From Pavlovales sp. CCMP2436 (Eukaryota; Haptophyta; Pavlovophyceae; Pavlovales), in the NCBI GenBank assembly GCA_026770615.1, contig MU631343.1, positions 1 to 18,518 of the forward strand: a DNA stretch of 18,518 bases, written 5' to 3'. Shown here one piece after another: positions 3,376-18,518 of this stretch. The translations under genes were made by a program, and so were the position numbers. Positions within the stretch are counted from its first letter, which is position 1; the number at the start of each line of letters is the position of its first letter. Below the pieces are notes generated by a model. The model was not told where the DNA came from. It saw nothing but the letters and a program-made list of their open reading frames with translations, and searched no databases.

Positions 3376-3490
3376 GTACGCGTGCAAATACCTATAAAAA
3401 CGTCCGGCCCCGTAAAACGGTCTCCCAGTCTCCCAGTGGTGCAGCAACACCACACTGTTAGCCTAGGACCGTTCACGAGCACACGGATAG
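3376..3490 (+). repeat. Dispersed TATAAAA-containing repeat, copy A
   Basis: The modules are CAGTACGCGTGCAAATACC, TATAAAAACGTCCGGCCCCG, CTCCCAGTCTCCCAGTGGTG, then CCTAGGACCGTTC and GAGCACACGGATA. The minus strand of 17097-17207 carries the same modules in the same order with high similarity. Shorter copies lie at 5943-6090, 756-886 and 15703-15765. It has no coding capacity and no visible TIR. A SINE or introner-like element are possibilities. Confidence 0.8.
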
Positions 3491-6322: not shown

Positions 6323-7210
6323 TCATTCCCCATGCATGGGGTCATCCGGGTCTATATTCGGTCTGTATAGCCTGAGGGCCTTCTTAACCTCCACCGGGAG
6401 GCCAATTGCTAGTGTGATTGCCGCCTCCCGTATTTGTACGGCTGCGTTCCAGCTGGCTGGTCGCCCTGAGCTCTTTAGCGCCGCATAAATCAGGCAGTTT
6501 CCGTCGCCATTCACGTGTTCTGGGGCTAGCGCAACTGACGCCAACGGGCTGTTTAAGTTGCCGGCCGGGGCTCGCATCGGTTGCGCTGTGATGTCTAGGT
6601 CGTCCCCCACTGTCACTTGGTGGTTGCTGGTTTTCTGCTCTATTTTCTTGCATGGGTGGTCGCGGGAGGTTCTGGCTAGGCAGGCGTTTTGTGCCGGGTT
6701 TTTTTTCAGGGTAATTGGCCTTTTTGTGTGGCGGCGCTTTTGGATGGCTTTGGCTGGCGGGGCGTTTGCGTATGGGGCTGCTAGGTTGCCAGCGCTGGGT
6801 TGGGATGCTGCTCGGCGTCGTGGCTGTCCATTCGGTCTGGCGAAGGGCTGTGTTGGTGGGCTTGGTGTGGCCGACGGGCGATCGCTTGGGGTGGGTGGGT
6901 TTGGCGTGTGCGAGTCATCTTGGCTCGATGTAGGGTGATCGGGGGTTTGGGATGGGGTCTGACTGGTGGGTCTTGGGTCTTCTTCTTCCATTTCTGAGTG
7001 GTTGTCATCCTGTTTCGTCTTGCTCTCGATGGCGGCCTGCCTTTCGGCGGTCTGGGATGCCCACATTGCGATTCGGTACTTTTGCACCTCGTAGTTGGAG
7101 ATTCCATCTGACGTGGCTGCAGCCATGGATTTTATCGCCTCTTCGCGCAGTTGGTGCATCGCTATGATGTACGCTAGAAGTTGGTGCGGGCTGGATGCCC
7201 CGGTGCACAT
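6323..7210 (-). CDS. ORF with OTU-type cysteine protease motif, C-terminally truncated
   Basis: The 295-codon frame has four parts. Residues 1-65 are a helical N-terminal block, 66-125 are acidic then Pro/Ser/Thr-rich, and 126-200 are a basic Arg/Lys-rich region. Near the end, from about residue 231, EHVNGDGNCLIYAAL occurs. D-G-N-C at 236-239 is the catalytic-cysteine signature of OTU deubiquitinase-like proteases. Family members need about another 80-100 residues with a catalytic His. Here the frame stops after only about 55. A neighbouring frame (NDLDHSKRPNFWPIAAQAK) continues plausibly downstream of 6323, so a frameshift is likely. OTU domains are common in eukaryotic retroelement and DNA-transposon proteins, and the disordered basic linker fits that setting. 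A host OTU gene cannot be excluded. Confidence 0.6.
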   Translation of the reverse strand: MCTGASSPHQLLAYIIAMHQLREEAIKSMAAATSDGISNYEVQKYRIAMWASQTAERQAAIESKTKQDDNHSEMEEEDPRPTSQTPSQTPDHPTSSQDDSHTPNPPTPSDRPSATPSPPTQPFARPNGQPRRRAASQPSAGNLAAPYANAPPAKAIQKRRHTKRPITLKKNPAQNACLARTSRDHPCKKIEQKTSNHQVTVGDDLDITAQPMRAPAGNLNSPLASVALAPEHVNGDGNCLIYAALKSSGRPASWNAAVQIREAAITLAIGLPVEVKKALRLYRPNIDPDDPMHGE

Positions 7211-7345
7211 AATAACATATCAGCGGCGCGCGACACTCTGAGCGGGCTCGCGCCTCTTTGTACGTCTCGTTCGCGAAGGAAGCGAGGCTGAAAAGACGCC
7301 CAAAAATAATGGCGTCCTGCACGCACTGTTCCGCGCTCGCAGTGC

Positions 7346-8554
7346 ATGCGTCTCTCTAGGCGGTCGCACACTCACGCTCGCGCGGGCGCGGGCCCGGAAT
7401 GGACAGTTAAATCATTGGACCTATCCGGCGACTTGCTGTGGGCCGCCAGGGCCGTCGCAGCCCGGTCAGCATCAGTCGAAGATCGGTCTGCATGCATGCA
7501 CTTGTGTTGGCCACGACTTGCATGGCGCCAAAAAGAAACGGTTATTTTCCCACCAAACAGCAGAAAACTTTTCATATCTCTGAACGGCTGCGATGCCGAC
7601 CTAGTCGCCGCGGCTCGGCGGCGAGGGCTCTTGGAGGTGCGGCGGTTACGTCGCTCCCGAGCGGCTGATAACGTCGCACGTCGCACGCCGACACCGACGT
7701 GCGCGACCACGGCCGACAAGGTCGCGGCTGAGCTTTGCGTCTCGACGCTGCGCCTCTGCAAGCCTGGACAAGGCATGCAGGTGAAGCCGCGGTATGGGCC
7801 GTTTGGCTGGGCGTACGCCGTTGGGCGGTACGTCGAGGAGCGCGCGCCACGGGAGTGGAACTCGGGCGCGTGCGGAGTGGCTGCGGTGGGCGACGATTGG
7901 ATGGCGAGGTCAATTGGTTTGTGCGCACATCTGGCGAAGGTGCTACCCGATGGCGCCGACTTCGAGATCGTGCCGTGATTCGTGAGCGAGGGGCGCGTGA
8001 TGTTCGTGCTTAACGCTCGCGTTGCCATCGCGCCGCAGCAGCGGCGGGCGGCGGGTGGCAAGCGCCGCGGGGCGGCGGTGGGTGGTAAGCCCCACGTGGG
8101 CGGCATGGGTGCACGCGCGGGCCGGTCAGCCCGCCGGGCAGCGGAGCGCGCCCTGGCGGCTGCGGAGCGCGCCCAGGCGCCTGTGCCCGCGCCCGCTGAC
8201 GCGTTCGCTGAGGCGCCCGCTGAGGCGCCCGCTGACGCGGGGATTGAGGAGCTGGTTGTGCCATCTCCCGTGGCGGACGCGGCAACCGGTGAGGCAGCGG
8301 CTCCTGCCTCTGACGCACCTGCTGACGCGCTTGCTGCCGAGGTTTCGCTGTTGTCGCAGACACTGCAGGTTTTGCTGCCGGCGCTGCCGCTGCACGTTCT
8401 CTTTCAAGCCGCGAGCGAGTCTATCCCAGAGTTTATCACCAGGGTAATCAGTCCACTGGCGAACTGGGTAGGCAAACCCGGCAAACACTCGAGATCGAGC
8501 GATGAGAACAGCAGCAGTGGTGACGACGACGGGAATAGAAACCGGTGGGCTTGA
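7346..8554 (+). pseudogene. Unrecognised gene, left copy, broken by an in-frame TGA
   Basis: One continuous frame runs from about 7346 to the TGA at 8552-8554, interrupted only by TGA at 7976-7978. The inverted copy on the right has TGG (Trp) at that codon. The first part includes KPRYGPFGWAYAVGRYVEER and LCAHLAKVLPDGADFEIVP. Then come an Arg/Ala-rich stretch, a Pro/Ala/Glu repeat (APADA, APAEAPADA) and a hydrophobic segment SLLSQTLQVLLPALPLHVLF. The end is an acidic/Ser tail. The 5' limit is uncertain, because coding character is clear only from about 7560. I recognise no family. Reading the TGA as readthrough or Trp is possible but less likely than decay. Confidence 0.6.
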
Positions 8555-8740
8555 CGCGGTGACGGCAACTTTGGCGAGGACTCTGGCACCTTCGGCAACT
8601 CAACGATATAATTTTTTGTCAGTGATGGGCCTTTAGCGCACAAGGGCAGCTGGAGGTACCTGCGGGCACGGCGGATTCACTCGCGAGAGTGACGTCGTTA
8701 TGAATCGACGATGACGGGTCTCGAGCGAAATAAATTATAA
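7793..8740. repeat. Left arm of ~0.9-kb inverted repeat
   Basis: From GGGCCGTTTGGCTGGGCG to beyond GACGGGTCTCGAGC, this arm is the near-identical reverse complement of 9258-10163. It carries the 3' two-thirds of the gene plus its 3' flank. Differences are scattered substitutions and in-frame length changes in the Pro/Ala repeat. Confidence 0.93.
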
Positions 8741-9285: not shown

Positions 9286-10163
9286 CGACGTCACTCTCGC
9301 GAGTGAATCCGCCGTGCCCGCAGGTACCTCCAGCTGCCCTTGTGCGCTAAAGGCCCATCACTGACAAATAATTATATCGTTGAGTTGCCGAAGGTGTCAG
9401 AGTCCTCTCCAAAGTTGCCGTCACCGCCTCAGGCCCGCCTGTTTCTTTTCCCGTCGTCACCACTGCTGCTCTCATCACTCGATCTCGAGTGTTTGCCGGG
9501 TTTGCCTACCCAGTTCGTCAGTGGACTGATTACCCTGGTGATGAACTCTGGGATGGACTCGCTCGCGGCTTGAAAGAGAACGTGCAGCGGCAGCGCCGGC
9601 AGCAAAACCTGCAGTGTCTGCGACAACAGCGATACCTTGGCAGCGGGCGCGTCAGCGGGTGCGTCAGCGGTAGGAGCCGCTGCCACACCGGTTGCCGCGT
9701 CCGCCACGGGAGATGGCACCACCAGCTCCTCAATCCCCGCGTCAGCGGGCGCGTCAGCGGGCGCGGGCACAGGCGCCTGGGCGCGCTCCGCAGCCGCCAG
9801 GGCGCGCTCCGCTGCCCGGCGGGCTGACCGGCCCGCGCGTGCACCCATGCCGCCCACGTGGGGCTTACCCCCTACCGCCGCCCTGCGGCGCTAGCCACCC
9901 GCCGCCCGCCGCTGCTGCGGCGCGATGGCAACGCGAGCGGTTAGCACGAACATCACGCACCCCTCGCTCACGAACCACGGCATGATCTTGAAGTCGGCAC
10001 CATTGGGTCGCACCTTCGCCAGTTGTGCGCACAAACCAGTTAACCTCGCCTCACAATCGTCGCCCGCCGCAGCCACTCCGCACGCGCCCGAGTTCCACTC
10101 CCGCGGCGCGCGCTCCTCGACGTACCGCCCCATGGCGTACGCCCAGCCAAACGGCCCACACCG
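9258..10163. repeat. Right arm of ~0.9-kb inverted repeat
   Basis: Reverse complement of 7793-8740. It is slightly shorter, mostly through loss of units in the Pro/Ala-coding repeat. The spacer between arms is about 517 bp and holds the Sel1-like exon. Confidence 0.93.
9429..10163 (-). pseudogene. Unrecognised gene, right copy, broken by an in-frame TAG
   Basis: The same protein as the left copy. The frame is open from the arm edge (C-G-P-F-G-W-A-Y-A, then MGRYVEERAPREWNSG) through MPWFVSEG, where the left copy has its stop. It then meets TAG at 9891-9893, where the left copy has AAG (Lys). It resumes in the same frame to a TGA at 9429-9431. Immediately upstream of the homologous region the frame hits a stop, so this copy lacks the 5' part of the gene. 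Confidence 0.7.
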
Positions 10164-10178
10164 TCAAATGCCAGCCTG

Positions 10179-15016: not shown

Positions 15017-15243
15017 TCAGGAGATGAATGGGTCGAAGGGGGCGAAGTGTGCGTCGGCGAGCAGCCTACACTCGTCGCTCAGCCCCTCGTAGTCGGCCTT
15101 GCCGTCGCCGATCGCCAGGTGGACCACCTCGCTCACGCAGTCGGCGAAGTATCGAGTATCTGCGGGCCCGGCAAGGGTGGGCGCCCAGGGCGGCACGATC
15201 TGGCCTGCCTCGAGCGCCTTCCAATCAAGGCCAACGAACCACT
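15017..15243 (-). CDS. Kinase exon F (AGC C-tail and stop)
   Basis: Acceptor AAAATGCGTAG|AG; the first codon is completed by the G of exon E, giving HEWFVGLDW. It aligns with PKA KWFATTDW, the C-tail Pro-rich segment and GDTSNFDDY (here ADTRYFADC). It ends FAPFDPFIS then TGA. No partial copy of this exon was seen. Confidence 0.92.
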
Positions 15244-18200
15244 CTACGCATTTTGGAAACATTTGATAGTAAAGGCGGGGGCGGGGTGGGTGTATTCAGG
15301 TGTGTGCAGAGTGGTGGTGTGTGCGTGTGCACGTGTGCACGCGTGCACGTGTACTTTCTTAATCAGAGTAAAGCAATGGAATGTGAAAGTACAGGGCGAA
15401 GTGCGATTAAATCCTTCTGTAGCCCAAACCCCCACAAATAGGAGAAAAAGGAGAAACAAAAGGAGAAACAAAAGAGAAAAATGAGGGAGAAACAACGCTA
15501 CCGGGGAGTAGGATAGCGCATGAGACGACCGATGCGCTGACCCTCCCATGTCATGCCCGTATGCCTTCGGGCTGCAAGTCGGGGGACGTTAAAAGAACTA
15601 TTATAAAAAACGCTACCGTGCGCCTTCACGTCGTCCGCCCCACCGTCGAGGTTGCCGAGGCGCTGCGACGGCCTGAGTAAAAGAAAGGATTTCTGATTAG
15701 GACATCTATCCCCGGAGCCGGTCTCCCGGACATGTCCAGGACCACTCCCCGAGCACACAGATACCGCCCCCCCCTGAGCCTGGTTACTCGGAGAGCCTGC
15801 GGGGCCAAACTGACTTGTGTGTCAGCATGCATCATTTTCAAAAGAGCATTGTCAGTCATAATGCGGTGTCAGTGTTAACATTAGAATTCGTTTTCGAATT
15901 CGTATTCGAATTCGTTCGTATTCGTATTCGTATGATCCTAATTACCTGTGTGTGAGCAGCGCGCCAACGAACCTGCACGCTGCCCCATGCGCCGCAACCT
16001 CCTGTGCGCGCGGGGAGAGGGGGGAGGGTGGGTGGGTGGGTGGGGGGGGGGCTAGCTAGCTTCAAGATGAGCAAGTGTAACCGCACGCCGCAGTGTGTAA
16101 ATATCTAGCGCCTGCACGCTGCCCCATGCGCTGCAACCTCCTGAGAGGGGATGGGGGGGGGGTAGCCTCAAGATGAGCAAGTGCAACTAAGTGTGGTGCG
16201 AGTATGCATATGTAACAACTCGTGACAGCAGACTAATTCGAATCCGGACTGGGCCGAATCCGGGGCAACTGCCAAAGAAAGGCAGTTGCAAACGGCAAAA
16301 GGAAGTTACAGTTACAACACAGAGCAGTGGTGGGTGCTACACAGGGCAGCCGCTACCTCGGCGCTCGGGCGGCCGCCGTTCGCCGCGGCTGGTGGGTACG
16401 GAATCAACTTACATACAAACAATGCTTAGAACTACATACAAACAAAATAATGCTGAAACCTGCATACAAACCATGCATTAAGACACCAGTTACCTCGGCG
16501 CTCGAGCGGCCGCCGTCCGCCACAGCTCGTATTCATATTCGTATTTTCAGTATTGTTACTACTACTATAATATTACAATGGGTTTTTTTAATATTATCAC
16601 TAGTAATACTAATACTTTTTATTCTTACCTCGGCGCTCGGGCGGCCGCCGTCCGCCGCGGCCGCCGGCGGGAACGGAGGCAAATTCGACCCCAGAATGTT
16701 GCGATAGACCTGACGGGGGGGATGGGGGGGGGGTTGAGAGTGAGTGTGTGTGTGTGTGTGTGTGTGTGTTTGGGGGGGGGAGGTGCAAATTTGCGTAGAT
16801 GATTTTGCGATTTATTTGAAAGTAAGCGGGAGAGAAGGAGACAGTAGGACGGAGAGTCAGGATAGACTCGACAGTTTAGCGACAATGTGCTGGACAGAGC
16901 TTCTCAATAAAAAAAATGAAAAAAATGAAACCTCTGCATCGGCACTTCTGCGGAGAACAGCGATCGCCCCGTAACTATTTCGAACACGAGTGGTGTGTGA
17001 ATATGTGTTTGTGTGTGTGTATGTGTATGTAACGGCACCTAAAAGAAGAAGCGTGTGATACAAACCGTTAAAAAAAAAGAAAAAAAGCGTGCGACACACA
17101 CCCCGTGTGCTCGGGAACGGTCCTAGGCAAACATTGTGTTGCTGCTGCACTACTGGGAGACTGGGAGATCTTTATGGGGCCGGACGTTTTTATATATGTT
17201 CACACACCTGCATTGGCGCTTCTGCGGAGAACGGCGATCTCCCCGCAACCATTTCGAACACGAGTACGCCCAGCGCCCACCAGTCCACCGAAGTTGTGTA
17301 CCCCACCTATATGTAGTTAGGATACAATGGGGGCAAGGGTCGTTTCAAAAGTCAGCCAGTCAGGGGCAAGTGACCTCCCATTTCAAAGGCGAGCACACCC
17401 AGCGCCCACCAGTCCACCGCAGTCGTGTACCCCGTCTGCTTGTAGATTTATTAATTCATTTATTATGGTTATCATTTAGATCTTAAAAAATATATAATGA
17501 GTATAACTGTTATTAGAATGAGTGAAAATTTTGAAATAAAATGACAAATTAATAAAAAAGGAGCATGCAGTAGTAATTAGTACGCCCATCGCCCACCAGT
17601 CCACTGCAGTCGTGTACCCCGCCTACAGGGGGTCGCGGGCAAAAGGAAATCGTAACGTTAATAAACTGAGCCTCATTTTTGTGCCCGTCACTAGTAATTT
17701 AAGAAAAATTTAAGCATTGTTTGTATGTAATTTGCTAAAATCTGAGCCTCAGTCTCAAAAGCGCCGTTCTTATTGCCTGCGACACCCTGTACTTGTAGTG
17801 ACTTATTCTACACTAATATTAGTTATTATCTAAAAAAAAAATGATATAGCAATTACTATGAGGAGATTTGTTATCGAAAACAGGCTCATACCTATATGAA
17901 TTTGGGGCCACCGTAACCCACCGTATTGGCAACCATTTTAGGTGCCATGAATTCATGCCGATCCCCATCCCCCCCCATGTCAAAAGCAACCCCCCCCCCT
18001 TCCCCCCCTCCATTAATTAGGCACCCACCGTGTTTGCCACCTTTTCAGGAGCCATGTACTCTTAAGTGCTACAGAGGAATGGTGGCATTGCTATTTATAG
18101 TAATAGTTATAGTAATGATAATCAAAATACTGATAGCTTCATTCTCCCTTGATCACTCAATTAGGATGTTCTAAAACCGCTCAAGACCTACCGTGTTGGC

Positions 18201-18429
18201 AACCATCTCAGGTGCCATGTACTCGGGAGTGCCACCAAGAAATAATCACAGTGATAGTTTCAATACTGGTAGTGGACTTATAATTAATAAGAACTAAATT
18301 ATTTGTAATAGCCGTAAAGTATTCCCACCGTGTTTACCACCATTTCAGGTGCCATGTACTCTGGAGTGCCGCAGAATGTGCGCGCGCGCTCGTCAGCCCC
18401 GGATGGCAATTCCCGCGCAAAGCCGAAAT
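15017..18429 (-). CDS. PKA-like AGC protein kinase, last six exons (5' part outside window)
   Basis: The exons are 18429-18329, 17306-17208, 16709-16629, 16001-15946, 15672-15617 and 15243-15017. All introns are GT-AG and all phases fit. In order the product carries the DFG motif (Asp split over the upstream junction) and [10 protein letters not shown]. Next are the activation loop with [14 protein letters not shown] (T-loop Thr, APE), [13 protein letters not shown] (subdomain IX), [12 protein letters not shown] and VYRNILGS. Then come RPSQRLGN (subdomain XI Arg) and KAHEWF. The AGC C-tail is [17 protein letters not shown] and [10 protein letters not shown]. The end, FAPFDPFIS, is an FxxF hydrophobic motif as in PKA and PRK-type kinases. 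The closest group by motif is PKA/PKG. An Ala/Gly-rich insert follows PPFP. The protein would be a cytosolic Ser/Thr kinase. The glycine loop, Lys72 and HRD motifs lie beyond the window. Introns contain partial copies of exon ends, a MITE and repeats. Confidence 0.93.
15433..15483 (+). repeat. Purine-rich AGGAGAAACAAA short tandem repeat
   Basis: GGAGAAA / AGGAGAAACAAA units repeat with small changes. On the minus strand this is a TTTCTCC pyrimidine stretch within the last intron. Confidence 0.8.
15617..15672 (-). CDS. Kinase exon E (RLGN loop, subdomain XI)
   Basis: A 56-base exon between TTTTACTCAG and CACG|GTAGCG. It starts in phase 2 (AG+G gives Arg), encodes [18 protein letters not shown] and ends in phase 1. 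It aligns with PKA LTKRFGNLKNGVNDIKNH. Confidence 0.92.
15703..15765 (+). repeat. Fragment of the dispersed repeat inside kinase intron D-E
   Basis: GGTCTCCCGG, CCAGGACCACTCCCC and GAGCACACAGATACCGCC match the 3' modules of the copy at 3376-3490 in the same order. Confidence 0.55.
15883..15933. repeat. TTCGTA / TTCGAA hexamer microsatellite
   Basis: A run of TTCGTATTCGAA-type hexamers lies in kinase intron D-E. A related ATTCATATTCGTATTT run borders the partial exon copy at 16494-16523. Confidence 0.85.
15946..16001 (-). CDS. Kinase exon D (C-lobe helix before RLG)
   Basis: A 56-base exon after GCGCGCACAG, ending CACACAG|GTAATT. It encodes [18 protein letters not shown] plus two bases. It aligns with the LKDLLRNLLQVD helix of PKA. 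Phase 0 in, phase 2 out, matching exon E exactly. Confidence 0.85.
16021..16052 (+). promoter_or_regulatory. GGGTGGG-rich tract (minus-strand C-rich pyrimidine tract)
   Basis: Runs GGGG, GGGTGGGTGGGTGGG and G(10) lie just upstream, in kinase sense, of the exon D acceptor. On the transcribed sense they form the C-rich tract for splicing. On the other strand they meet the four-G-run pattern for a G-quadruplex. Confidence 0.6.
16111..16140 (-). pseudogene. Partial copy of exon D: 5' end with acceptor
   Basis: CCTCTCAG| is followed by 30 bases matching the start of exon D with one visible difference ([10 protein letters not shown]). The match then breaks into CGCTAGATATTTACACAC, the inverse of the GTGTGTAAATATCTA module of the dispersed repeat. 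It lies 139 bases upstream of exon D. Flanking intron sequence (AGCTTCAAGATGAGCAAGTG, AGCCTCAAGATGAGCAAGTG) is duplicated too. Confidence 0.85.
16357..16401 (-). pseudogene. Partial copy of exon C (second): 3' end with donor
   Basis: It encodes [15 protein letters not shown] in the parental frame and ends GAG|GTAGCG. It lies 137 bases downstream of the other partial copy. The 5' part (VYRNILGS) is missing. Confidence 0.85.
16408..16480. repeat. Three ACATACAAAC motifs related to the MITE interior
   Basis: TTACATACAAACAATG, CTACATACAAACAAAATAAT and TGCATACAAACCATGCATT recur about 30 bases apart between the two partial copies of exon C. The first matches the internal MITE motif TTACATACAAACAATG exactly. 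Confidence 0.7.
16494..16523 (-). pseudogene. Partial copy of exon C (first): 3' end with donor
   Basis: About 30 bases encode [10 protein letters not shown] in the parental frame and end GAG|GTAACT. The copy is 135 bases downstream of the exon C donor. The intron sequence after its donor shows little resemblance to that after exon C. Confidence 0.85.
16629..16709 (-). CDS. Kinase exon C ([12 protein letters not shown], Ala-rich insert)
   Basis: An 81-base, phase-0 exon between CCCCCCCGTCAG and GAG|GTAAGA. It encodes [14 protein letters not shown] followed by [26 protein letters not shown] aligns with PKA IYEKIVSGKVRFP. The Ala/Gly-rich tail is a lineage-specific insert. Confidence 0.92.
16715..16790. 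repeat. G-runs and (GT)n microsatellite in kinase intron B-C
   Basis: GGGGGG runs at 16715-16734 are followed by (GT)n at about 16742-16770 and another run of eight G. On the sense (minus) strand this forms the pyrimidine tract before exon C. Confidence 0.85.
16934..16992 (-). pseudogene. Partial copy of exon B: 3' end, donor lost
   Basis: It encodes [18 protein letters not shown] against [18 protein letters not shown] of exon B. The junction reads CAG|AGGTTT, so GT is not at the homologous place. The upstream break is at GTGTGTGAATAT on the plus strand, the same word that opens the dispersed repeat. It is 274 bases downstream of exon B. Confidence 0.85.
17097..17207 (-). repeat. Dispersed TATAAAA-containing repeat starting at the exon B donor
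   Basis: Read on the minus strand, it begins at the first intron base after exon B: GTGTGTGAACATATATAAAA, then ACGTCCGGCCCC, CTCCCAGTCTCCCAGTAGTG, CCTAGGACCGTTCCCGAGCA and CACGG. Order and sequence match copy A at 3376-3490. Confidence 0.82.
17208..17306 (-). CDS. Kinase exon B (subdomain IX)
   Basis: A 99-base, phase-0 exon between CTACATATAG and ATGCAG|GTGTGT. It encodes [19 protein letters not shown] and [14 protein letters not shown]. The invariant Asp of subdomain IX and the WW pair are typical of AGC kinases ([17 protein letters not shown]). Confidence 0.94.
17379..17435 (-). pseudogene. Partial copy of exon B: 5' end with acceptor (proximal)
   Basis: CTACAAGCAG| is followed by codons for [19 protein letters not shown]. 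The match is then lost and a stop follows after GGHLPLTG. The copy's acceptor lies 129 bases upstream of the exon B acceptor. If spliced it would give a truncated kinase. Confidence 0.88.
17579..17622 (-). pseudogene. Partial copy of exon B: 5' end with acceptor (distal, at MITE edge)
   Basis: CCCTGTAG| is followed by codons for [15 protein letters not shown]; the match ends there. The AG of the acceptor is formed by the MITE's TA target duplication plus the original G. Confidence 0.85.
17626..17789. mobile_element. MITE copy 2, 164 bp, TA target duplication, in kinase intron A-B
   Basis: TIRs CAGGGGGTCGCGGGCAA and TTGCCTGCGACACCCTG, flanked by TA (17624-17625, 17790-17791). The reverse complement matches MITE 430-596 along its length, including TTTAGCAAATTACATACAAA then CAATG and AATGAGGCTCAGTTT. 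It is diverged, so not a recent insertion. Confidence 0.9.
17922..17959 (-). pseudogene. Partial copy of exon A (third): 3' end with donor
   Basis: It encodes MAPKMVANT and ends ACG|GTGGGT. The upstream GTPEY part is eroded by a deletion and the APE Glu is Lys. It is the most decayed of the exon A copies. Confidence 0.75.
18029..18072 (-). pseudogene. Partial copy of exon A (second): 3' end with donor
   Basis: It encodes [18 protein letters not shown] in the parental frame and ends ACG|GTGGGT. The Pro codon of GTPEY is replaced by TAA, so inclusion would end translation. Confidence 0.85.
18192..18235 (-). pseudogene. Partial copy of exon A (first): 3' end with donor
   Basis: It encodes [14 protein letters not shown] without a stop and ends ACG|GTAGGT, a better donor than that of exon A itself (GTGGGA). 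No acceptor precedes it. It is 137 bases downstream of the exon A donor. Confidence 0.9.
18329..18429 (-). CDS. Kinase exon A (DFG to APE, activation loop)
   Basis: A 101-base exon after CCACCAACATGCAG, ending AACACG|GTGGGA. The first two bases complete Asp of DFG. It then encodes [18 protein letters not shown] and [15 protein letters not shown]. The FCGTPEY stretch places the phosphorylatable Thr as in PKA Thr197. Confidence 0.95.
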
Positions 18430-18489
18430 CTGCATGTTGGTGGGTGGGGGGGGTGAGGGGTAAAGGAAGGAGATAGGAGGGGGGGTAAG

Positions 18490-18518
18490 TGTGCGCGCAC
18501 GCTCGTCAGCCCCGAATG
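18490..18518 (-). pseudogene. Partial copy of exon A middle, cut by the window end
   Basis: It encodes GADERART in the same frame as exon A, then diverges into CTTACC. It lies upstream of exon A, so it may be the end of another partial or complete copy outside the window. Confidence 0.7.

Follow-up and report, generated by a model that had tools for sequence, protein, structure and literature searches.

The window analyzed here, that is, the whole stretch of 18,518 nucleotides from the haptophyte Pavlovales sp. CCMP2436, contains a kinase gene whose introns repeat the ends of the exons next to them, raising the question of how such copies came into being and whether splicing makes use of them. 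We call a partial copy of an exon end inside the adjoining intron, usually with its GT or AG, an echo. The initial annotation had listed nine junction-bearing copies and one fragment, all of which were found again by local alignment, and had offered intron growth or regulation through decoy splice sites as explanations; the letters of the exons are reversed in this study, so that its exons A, B, C, and D are our D, C, B, and A. The assembly containing the window comprises 119.35 Mb in 703 contigs, and the contig sequence beyond position 18518 reads N up to at least 55000.

The gene lies on the minus strand at 15.0–18.5 kb of the window, encodes a PKA-like kinase (PKA is the top match of the kinase segment among solved structures, E 3e-20), and carries echoes in three introns; all of the following features are on the same strand. 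Exon D (18329–18429) encodes the DFG...APE segment, as judged from its translation, a piece of the Pfam Pkinase domain, the best structure match to PKA, and an alignment of the relative P0162 that runs through it. Upstream of it, a fragment of the same exon is cut by the window end (18490–18518, 27/29 identical), and downstream its 3' end recurs three times: as echo 1 at 18192–18241, followed by GTAGGT (42/48 identical), as echo 2 at 18029–18075, followed by GTGGGT and containing an in-frame stop (40/47), and as echo 3 at 17922–17954, again followed by GTGGGT (26/33). The same intron continues with two echoes of the 5' end of exon C, echo 1 at 17579–17622 with CTGTAG before it (38/42 identical) and echo 2 at 17378–17435 with AAGCAG before it (49/56). 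Exon C itself (17208–17306) is supported by its translation and by the motif TSVDWW, which is also present in P0162, and an echo of its 3' end follows at 16934–16991 (52/58 identical), with AG in place of GT. Exon B (16629–16709; translation and alignment to P0162) is followed by echo 1 of its 3' end at 16494–16526, leading into GTAACT (30/33), and by echo 2 at 16357–16410, leading into GTAGCG (47/54). An echo of the 5' end of exon A, preceded by TCTCAG, lies at 16112–16140; it is 28/29 identical to the exon, and its intron part is homologous as well (z 6.8). Exon A (15946–16001) rests on a weak tblastn match of P0162 (E 0.012), its end being read from the sequence, and tblastn of P0162 also places the next exon at 15617–15672 and the C-terminal exon at 15023–15247, both with approximate ends.

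No transcript of the window kinase from the same species was present among the best 120 of 3649 matches, in which P0162 (474 aa, JGI source) is the nearest by identity, with 75% over 76 aa. This protein spans exons D, C, and the start of B and contains none of the echo peptides. It reads TSVDWW, as does exon C, where the echoes of exon C (echo 1 is the one named) read TAVDWW, which identifies the exon-side copy as the real exon C. An Rfam scan of the window returned nothing at gathering thresholds.

The echoes follow a consistent geometry. In local alignments within the window, all nine junction-bearing matches stop 2 nt or less from the junction, their divergence from their own exons ranges from 3% to 21%, and the copies within an intron are arranged in the order exon, donor copies, acceptor copies, exon. 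Eight of the nine keep the splice dinucleotide, as the initial annotation had stated, the exception being the AG for GT at 16934. When exon ends were scored against introns, five of the six reached 53–86 in their own intron, far above the cross-gene null, for which introns of sufficient length at other loci gave a maximum of 16–31; for exon B, the 5' end has no echo in its own intron (18 vs 26 in other loci). Inverted copies did not stand out.

Exon-end matches in introns are not peculiar to this locus, since they recur in six other genes. Together with the window kinase, these seven genes contain 21 families with 35 copies, picked by eye and so not an unbiased sample, of which 34 keep the dinucleotide; the orientation is direct throughout, with direct scores of 16–75 and inverted scores of 12–27 over the 21 families. 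The loci under study, 20 with kinase hits and mostly consisting of several pieces, had been taken from a Pfam hit list before the echo search. Besides a MAPKK (L030) and an Aurora-like kinase (L025), the carriers of echoes include the kinesin of L035 and the CDK-like kinase of L038; among the other kinesin loci, L034 is without local repeats, and two repeats in L040 lie outside its kinesin pieces. Searches for TCP1 and myosin gave 6 and 8 matches, respectively. The candidates L028 86–262, L026 6664–6816, L033, and L036 were not placeable in a gene and were excluded from the 21 families. Two of the families, E7d and KNanp, have a weak exon-side match (0.43–0.53 over 30 nt). Local direct repeats are common throughout this genome, with 32 of 128 background windows of 1 kb containing them, some of them being coding or possibly echoes of unmodelled genes. 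Of 12 purely intronic pairs, nine are simple sequence in one L028 segment and three lie in A, E1, and E7; read as parts of junction-straddling units, these three leave duplications away from junctions looking scarce.

To relate echoes to intron length, gene models were built with a home-made spliced profile aligner, which found the inner boundaries of exons 1–6 of the MAPKK gene, overran the end of exon 6, and recovered only exons D and C in the window; both genes were then set by hand. The surveyed introns come from 16 of the 20 loci plus the window: single-exon models (L014, L027) were discarded, no introns came from L031 and L032, L028, just below the first threshold, was added later, and the exon ends of L020 and L028 were hand-adjusted. 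Introns with N runs were excluded, and repeat pairs were accepted at a length of at least 20, an entropy of at least 2.7, and an E-value of at most 0.001. Exon-end echoes were found in none of the 18 internal introns shorter than 200 nt, in one of 10 with 200–400 nt, and in nine of 15 with at least 400 nt, one of these nine being weak (E 5e-4); these figures for 43 internal introns are a recount, the original tally having also counted four flank segments that were brought in where echoes were known beforehand. The dependence on length is significant (Fisher p 7e-5; 0.001 without the window), and echo-bearing introns are longer partly because the copies themselves add length.

The MAPKK gene shows what becomes of the echoes in a mature product. 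Its exon chain with the 11 echoes skipped equals P0121, a prediction from an MMETSP transcript (JGI and MMETSP sources), at 100% over 259 aa, and residues 1–323 of the 349 in P0121 match exons E0–E8 at 100%, each exon end appearing once. None of the 11 echoes is included in this protein, the main product of the one gene concerned, and their removal by splicing leaves the MAPKK coding sequence unchanged. Over 22 echoes, mismatches are spread across the three codon positions as 28/28/39, and the codon changes comprise 50 nonsynonymous, 28 synonymous, and one stop. This pattern fits neutral decay and is incompatible with coding constraint on both sides; the mismatches being codon-neutral, the echoes are therefore not coding exons, and we rejected a coding use on account of this spread. 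The contrast drawn in the initial annotation with whole-exon duplication and exclusive use was borne out in that the copies cover only parts of exons and their decay shows no coding constraint.

Two gene models from databases touch on the same introns. Across 76% of its length, the MAPKK protein shows 100% identity to P0126 (NCBI, Pavlovales sp. CCMP2436), a partial MAPKK model that terminates within intronic sequence past exon 6, suggesting that gene prediction is misled by these introns. In P0124, a predicted MAPKK of Diacronema lutheri, the stretch ITQSPFGR.EGSSAL is repeated at the place of the first exon's end; this may be an in-frame duplication or an echo in the gene model, and is a hint that the process is Pavlovales-wide.

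We propose that repeated local tandem duplications across splice junctions, tolerated through splicing, have probably lengthened the introns of this alga. Segments of ~70–300 bp straddling an exon–intron junction would be duplicated in tandem, repeatedly; the copy adjoining the exon body would stay functional, and all extra copies would be lost when the exon-side donor is spliced to the exon-side acceptor, leaving the protein unchanged and the intron one unit longer per duplication. The extra copies, each with its exon end and splice dinucleotide, would sit on the intron side, where they would decay in the manner of non-coding DNA, and tolerance through splicing is presumably the reason why they persist. 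The rule that copies keep the junction would follow, because a tandem duplication that leaves one exonic and one intronic copy must cross it, and the copies do lie on the side that tandem duplication demands, which counts for duplication. In the Aurora-like kinase gene, two near-identical junction-straddling units of ~47 exon and 31 intron nt each follow an exon. Co-duplicated intron sequence is present in 11 to 13 of the 21 families. Ten passed an anchored test of intron-side homology, among them E7 and A3 narrowly (E7 has a z of -0.3 in a separate spacer comparison); in the H and CDK families, simple sequence makes up part of what is shared in the intron. Three more (A, upstream of E1, and 3' of E7) show intron homology by local alignment or through intronic pairs. 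Spacer homology reaches z 8.6–16.7 in E6, except for the outermost spacer (z 0.1–1.2), z 9.0 in E2, and z 6.8 in A, and the intron homology upstream of E1 has a z of 3.9. Of the two explanations in the initial annotation, intron growth gains support from the concentration of echoes in long introns, the young junction-spanning tandem repeats, and the absence of the MAPKK echoes from the transcript-derived protein.

Plain decay of duplicated units does not account for everything. In eight of the 21 families (B, C3, C5, D, E8, K, KNenq, and KNfng), no intron-side homology was found beyond ~14 nt from the junction, in a gapped test as well, and plain decay fails to account for this stop; simulated co-duplicated intron sequence of 58 nt was recognizable in 86–100% of trials, using the sequences of four families and a fixed score threshold. 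We infer that these eight families arose by tandem duplication likewise. Pooled over 26 copies of 16 families, the identity of echo and exon is 85–88% on the exon side within 20 nt, 96% in the dinucleotide, 58% at +3 to +6, 39% at +7 to +11, and ~30% beyond, in an ungapped profile that exaggerates the intron-side fall; between echoes, neither of which codes, the same bins give 82–86%, 100%, 77%, 49%, and 25–29%. With weight matrices built from 25 introns, echo donors score 6.0 bits, true donors 6.4, and all GTs of two loci 1.9, the corresponding values for acceptors being 2.7, 4.1, and 1.4 (all AGs). Retention of the dinucleotide in 34 of 35 copies is only moderately above the neutral expectation, with p from 0.0005 to 0.07 depending on the assumed decay. 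The apparent scarcity of duplications away from junctions and the weak exon-side matches of E7d and KNanp also count against the proposal. Thus, in some of the cases, the exon-like parts and the splice signals last longer than the sequence around them, and such persistence could reflect conversion, constraint, duplicated segments with little intron, or a faster turnover of low-complexity spacers.

Conversion would add a step to a tandem origin: the exon-like parts would stay similar through short-range gene conversion or template switching, which could involve the real exon or take place between alleles with differing introns, and as homology ends at the junction, only the exon end would be renewed while the spacers diverge. 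The sharp identity step at the junction, seen between echoes too, agrees with this, as does the fact that the B, C, and D spacers are mostly without significant homology though their exon parts are 79–91% alike (the best spacer pairs, the second against the fourth of D and those downstream of C, reach z 2.6 and 2.7); the spacers do not make up a single repeat family, given that one from B matches the genome at one place only. We nevertheless consider conversion rather unlikely, given that the divergence between exon and echo is not clearly below independent decay, that no conversion tract or allele was seen, and that about half of the families require no such process. Maintenance of the echoes by function, either through nested or recursive inside-out splicing with the real outer sites used last or as decoys, is to us doubtful. 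In its favor, each kind of copy is found at its own end of the intron, donors with the donor and acceptors with the acceptor, so that inner pairs nest in outer ones; echo donors roughly equal true ones in strength, GT or AG is kept in 34/35, echoes are almost confined to introns over 400 nt, and the exon side, together with the first bases of the intron, persists longer than the rest. However, several introns have one-sided copies, for which inside-out splicing is not simple, the GT after an acceptor echo that a ratchet point (AG|GT) needs is found in only 6/17, echo acceptors are weaker than true ones, the sole transcript product seen, that of the MAPKK gene, does not use the echoes, and the length dependence is equally expected from growth by duplication. 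A maintained splice-site ladder, in which long introns are excised in nested steps from the inside outwards by way of repeated modules, each an exon end with its splice signal, that have kept their full donor strength, is improbable, and would, if true, help an alga with many short introns to remove its long ones. Decoy-splice-site regulation, the other explanation in the initial annotation, has no direct support, and it is possible that echo sites are still used, their donors being as strong as real ones and 34/35 dinucleotides being kept.

A transposon or introner inserting at exon ends and duplicating 30–60 bp of its target would agree with the dispersed elements in several of these introns, one element end providing the AG of a window echo and that of a real L025 exon. 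It is very unlikely, however, as the genome contains only one match to the first B spacer, spacers 1 and 2 of D, the first of B, one of C, and the second downstream of C match only themselves among the examined loci, and the target duplications of introners are given as 3–9 bp (PMC9860276). End-to-end joining of allelic contigs could be suspected in a gapped assembly with a stretch of N adjoining the window, but divergence of 3–21%, codon-neutral changes with a stop, unlike functional alleles, several copies of different ages per junction, and the same pattern in seven genes make an assembly error extremely unlikely. Tandem exon duplication with alternative, mutually exclusive use, which the retention of one splice site in each copy might bring to mind, is scarcely credible for copies that are partial, free of coding constraint, and missing from the MAPKK transcript product. 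Two further schemes were rejected. Intron insertion with a long target-site duplication is contradicted by the D spacers, which by eye do not run GT...AG between copies as those of B do, and by the non-repetitive nature of the first B spacer; duplication of an AGGT within a continuous exon should, as we reason, place acceptor-side before donor-side copies, the reverse of what is observed.

Repeats of other kinds are present as well. An element of ~155 bp, with ends like CTACAGGGG...TGTAG, has 21 matches in 14 examined loci including the window; copies lie at 428–582 and 17623–17791 of the window, the latter with approximate ends set by eye and no strand assigned, and at ~3140–3310 of L025. By eye, the end of the copy at 17623–17791 supplies the AG before echo 1 of exon C, and in L025 the copy's end does so for the acceptor of a real exon. 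Introns and other sequence also contain at least one further dispersed family, with some copies starting like GTGTGTGAATATCTA (window 17103–17207, 3393–3486, and 760–900; L030 2960–3110). Perfect tandem duplications, one of 153 bp at 1056–1361 of the window and one with 68-bp spacing at 2665–2801 of L021, are either very recent or assembly artefacts. The window further contains a large inverted repeat (~7300–8700 and 9300–10170) with closely similar open frames on opposite strands, and a 298-codon open frame on the minus strand at 6323–7219 with a GDGNCLIYAA stretch reminiscent of OTU-type proteases.

Mass change of intron content in protists is known from introners, and the algal echoes are like them in this respect. 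Introners are transposons common to many loci (PMC9860276), unlike the algal B spacer with one genome match. Closer to the process proposed here are the tandem duplications known to create introns in vertebrate ATP2A1 (Hellsten 2011) and in fission yeast, which share with the alga the duplication of a segment in tandem, its silencing by splicing, and the exon-derived sequence left in the intron; in the fission yeast case the intron runs across several duplicates (PMC4974935). According to the same source, the new intron there arises from an exonic AGGT, whereas in the alga existing introns are lengthened and the unit crosses an existing junction. The algal copies all lie inside introns, and no new intron position from an exonic AGGT was found among them. 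In a potato RdRp gene the duplicated unit likewise crosses an intron–exon boundary and part of an exon becomes intron, but that case (PMC4974935) is one event with one new intron, in contrast to up to four copies per junction in several algal genes without a new position. Stwintrons, which are nested spliceosomal twin introns (PMC8469720), resemble the algal introns in that repeated splice sites within an intron could permit stepwise excision, and differ by an internal intron splitting a splice signal, of which none was seen in the alga.

A literature search whose coverage left out most subscription journals turned up no paper with a title or opening abstract lines describing repeated arrays that cross junctions and lengthen introns in several genes of a single genome. 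We file the echoes as an iterated form of tandem genomic duplication. To our knowledge, intron lengthening other than by transposon insertion seems poorly documented. Echo-bearing introns may account for poor gene models such as P0126, and introns with as many as four donors of similar strength are natural arrays in which the choice of the right donor by the spliceosome can be tested directly. Junction duplications in this alga form a graded record from near-identical to barely visible, in which intron growth can be read step by step.
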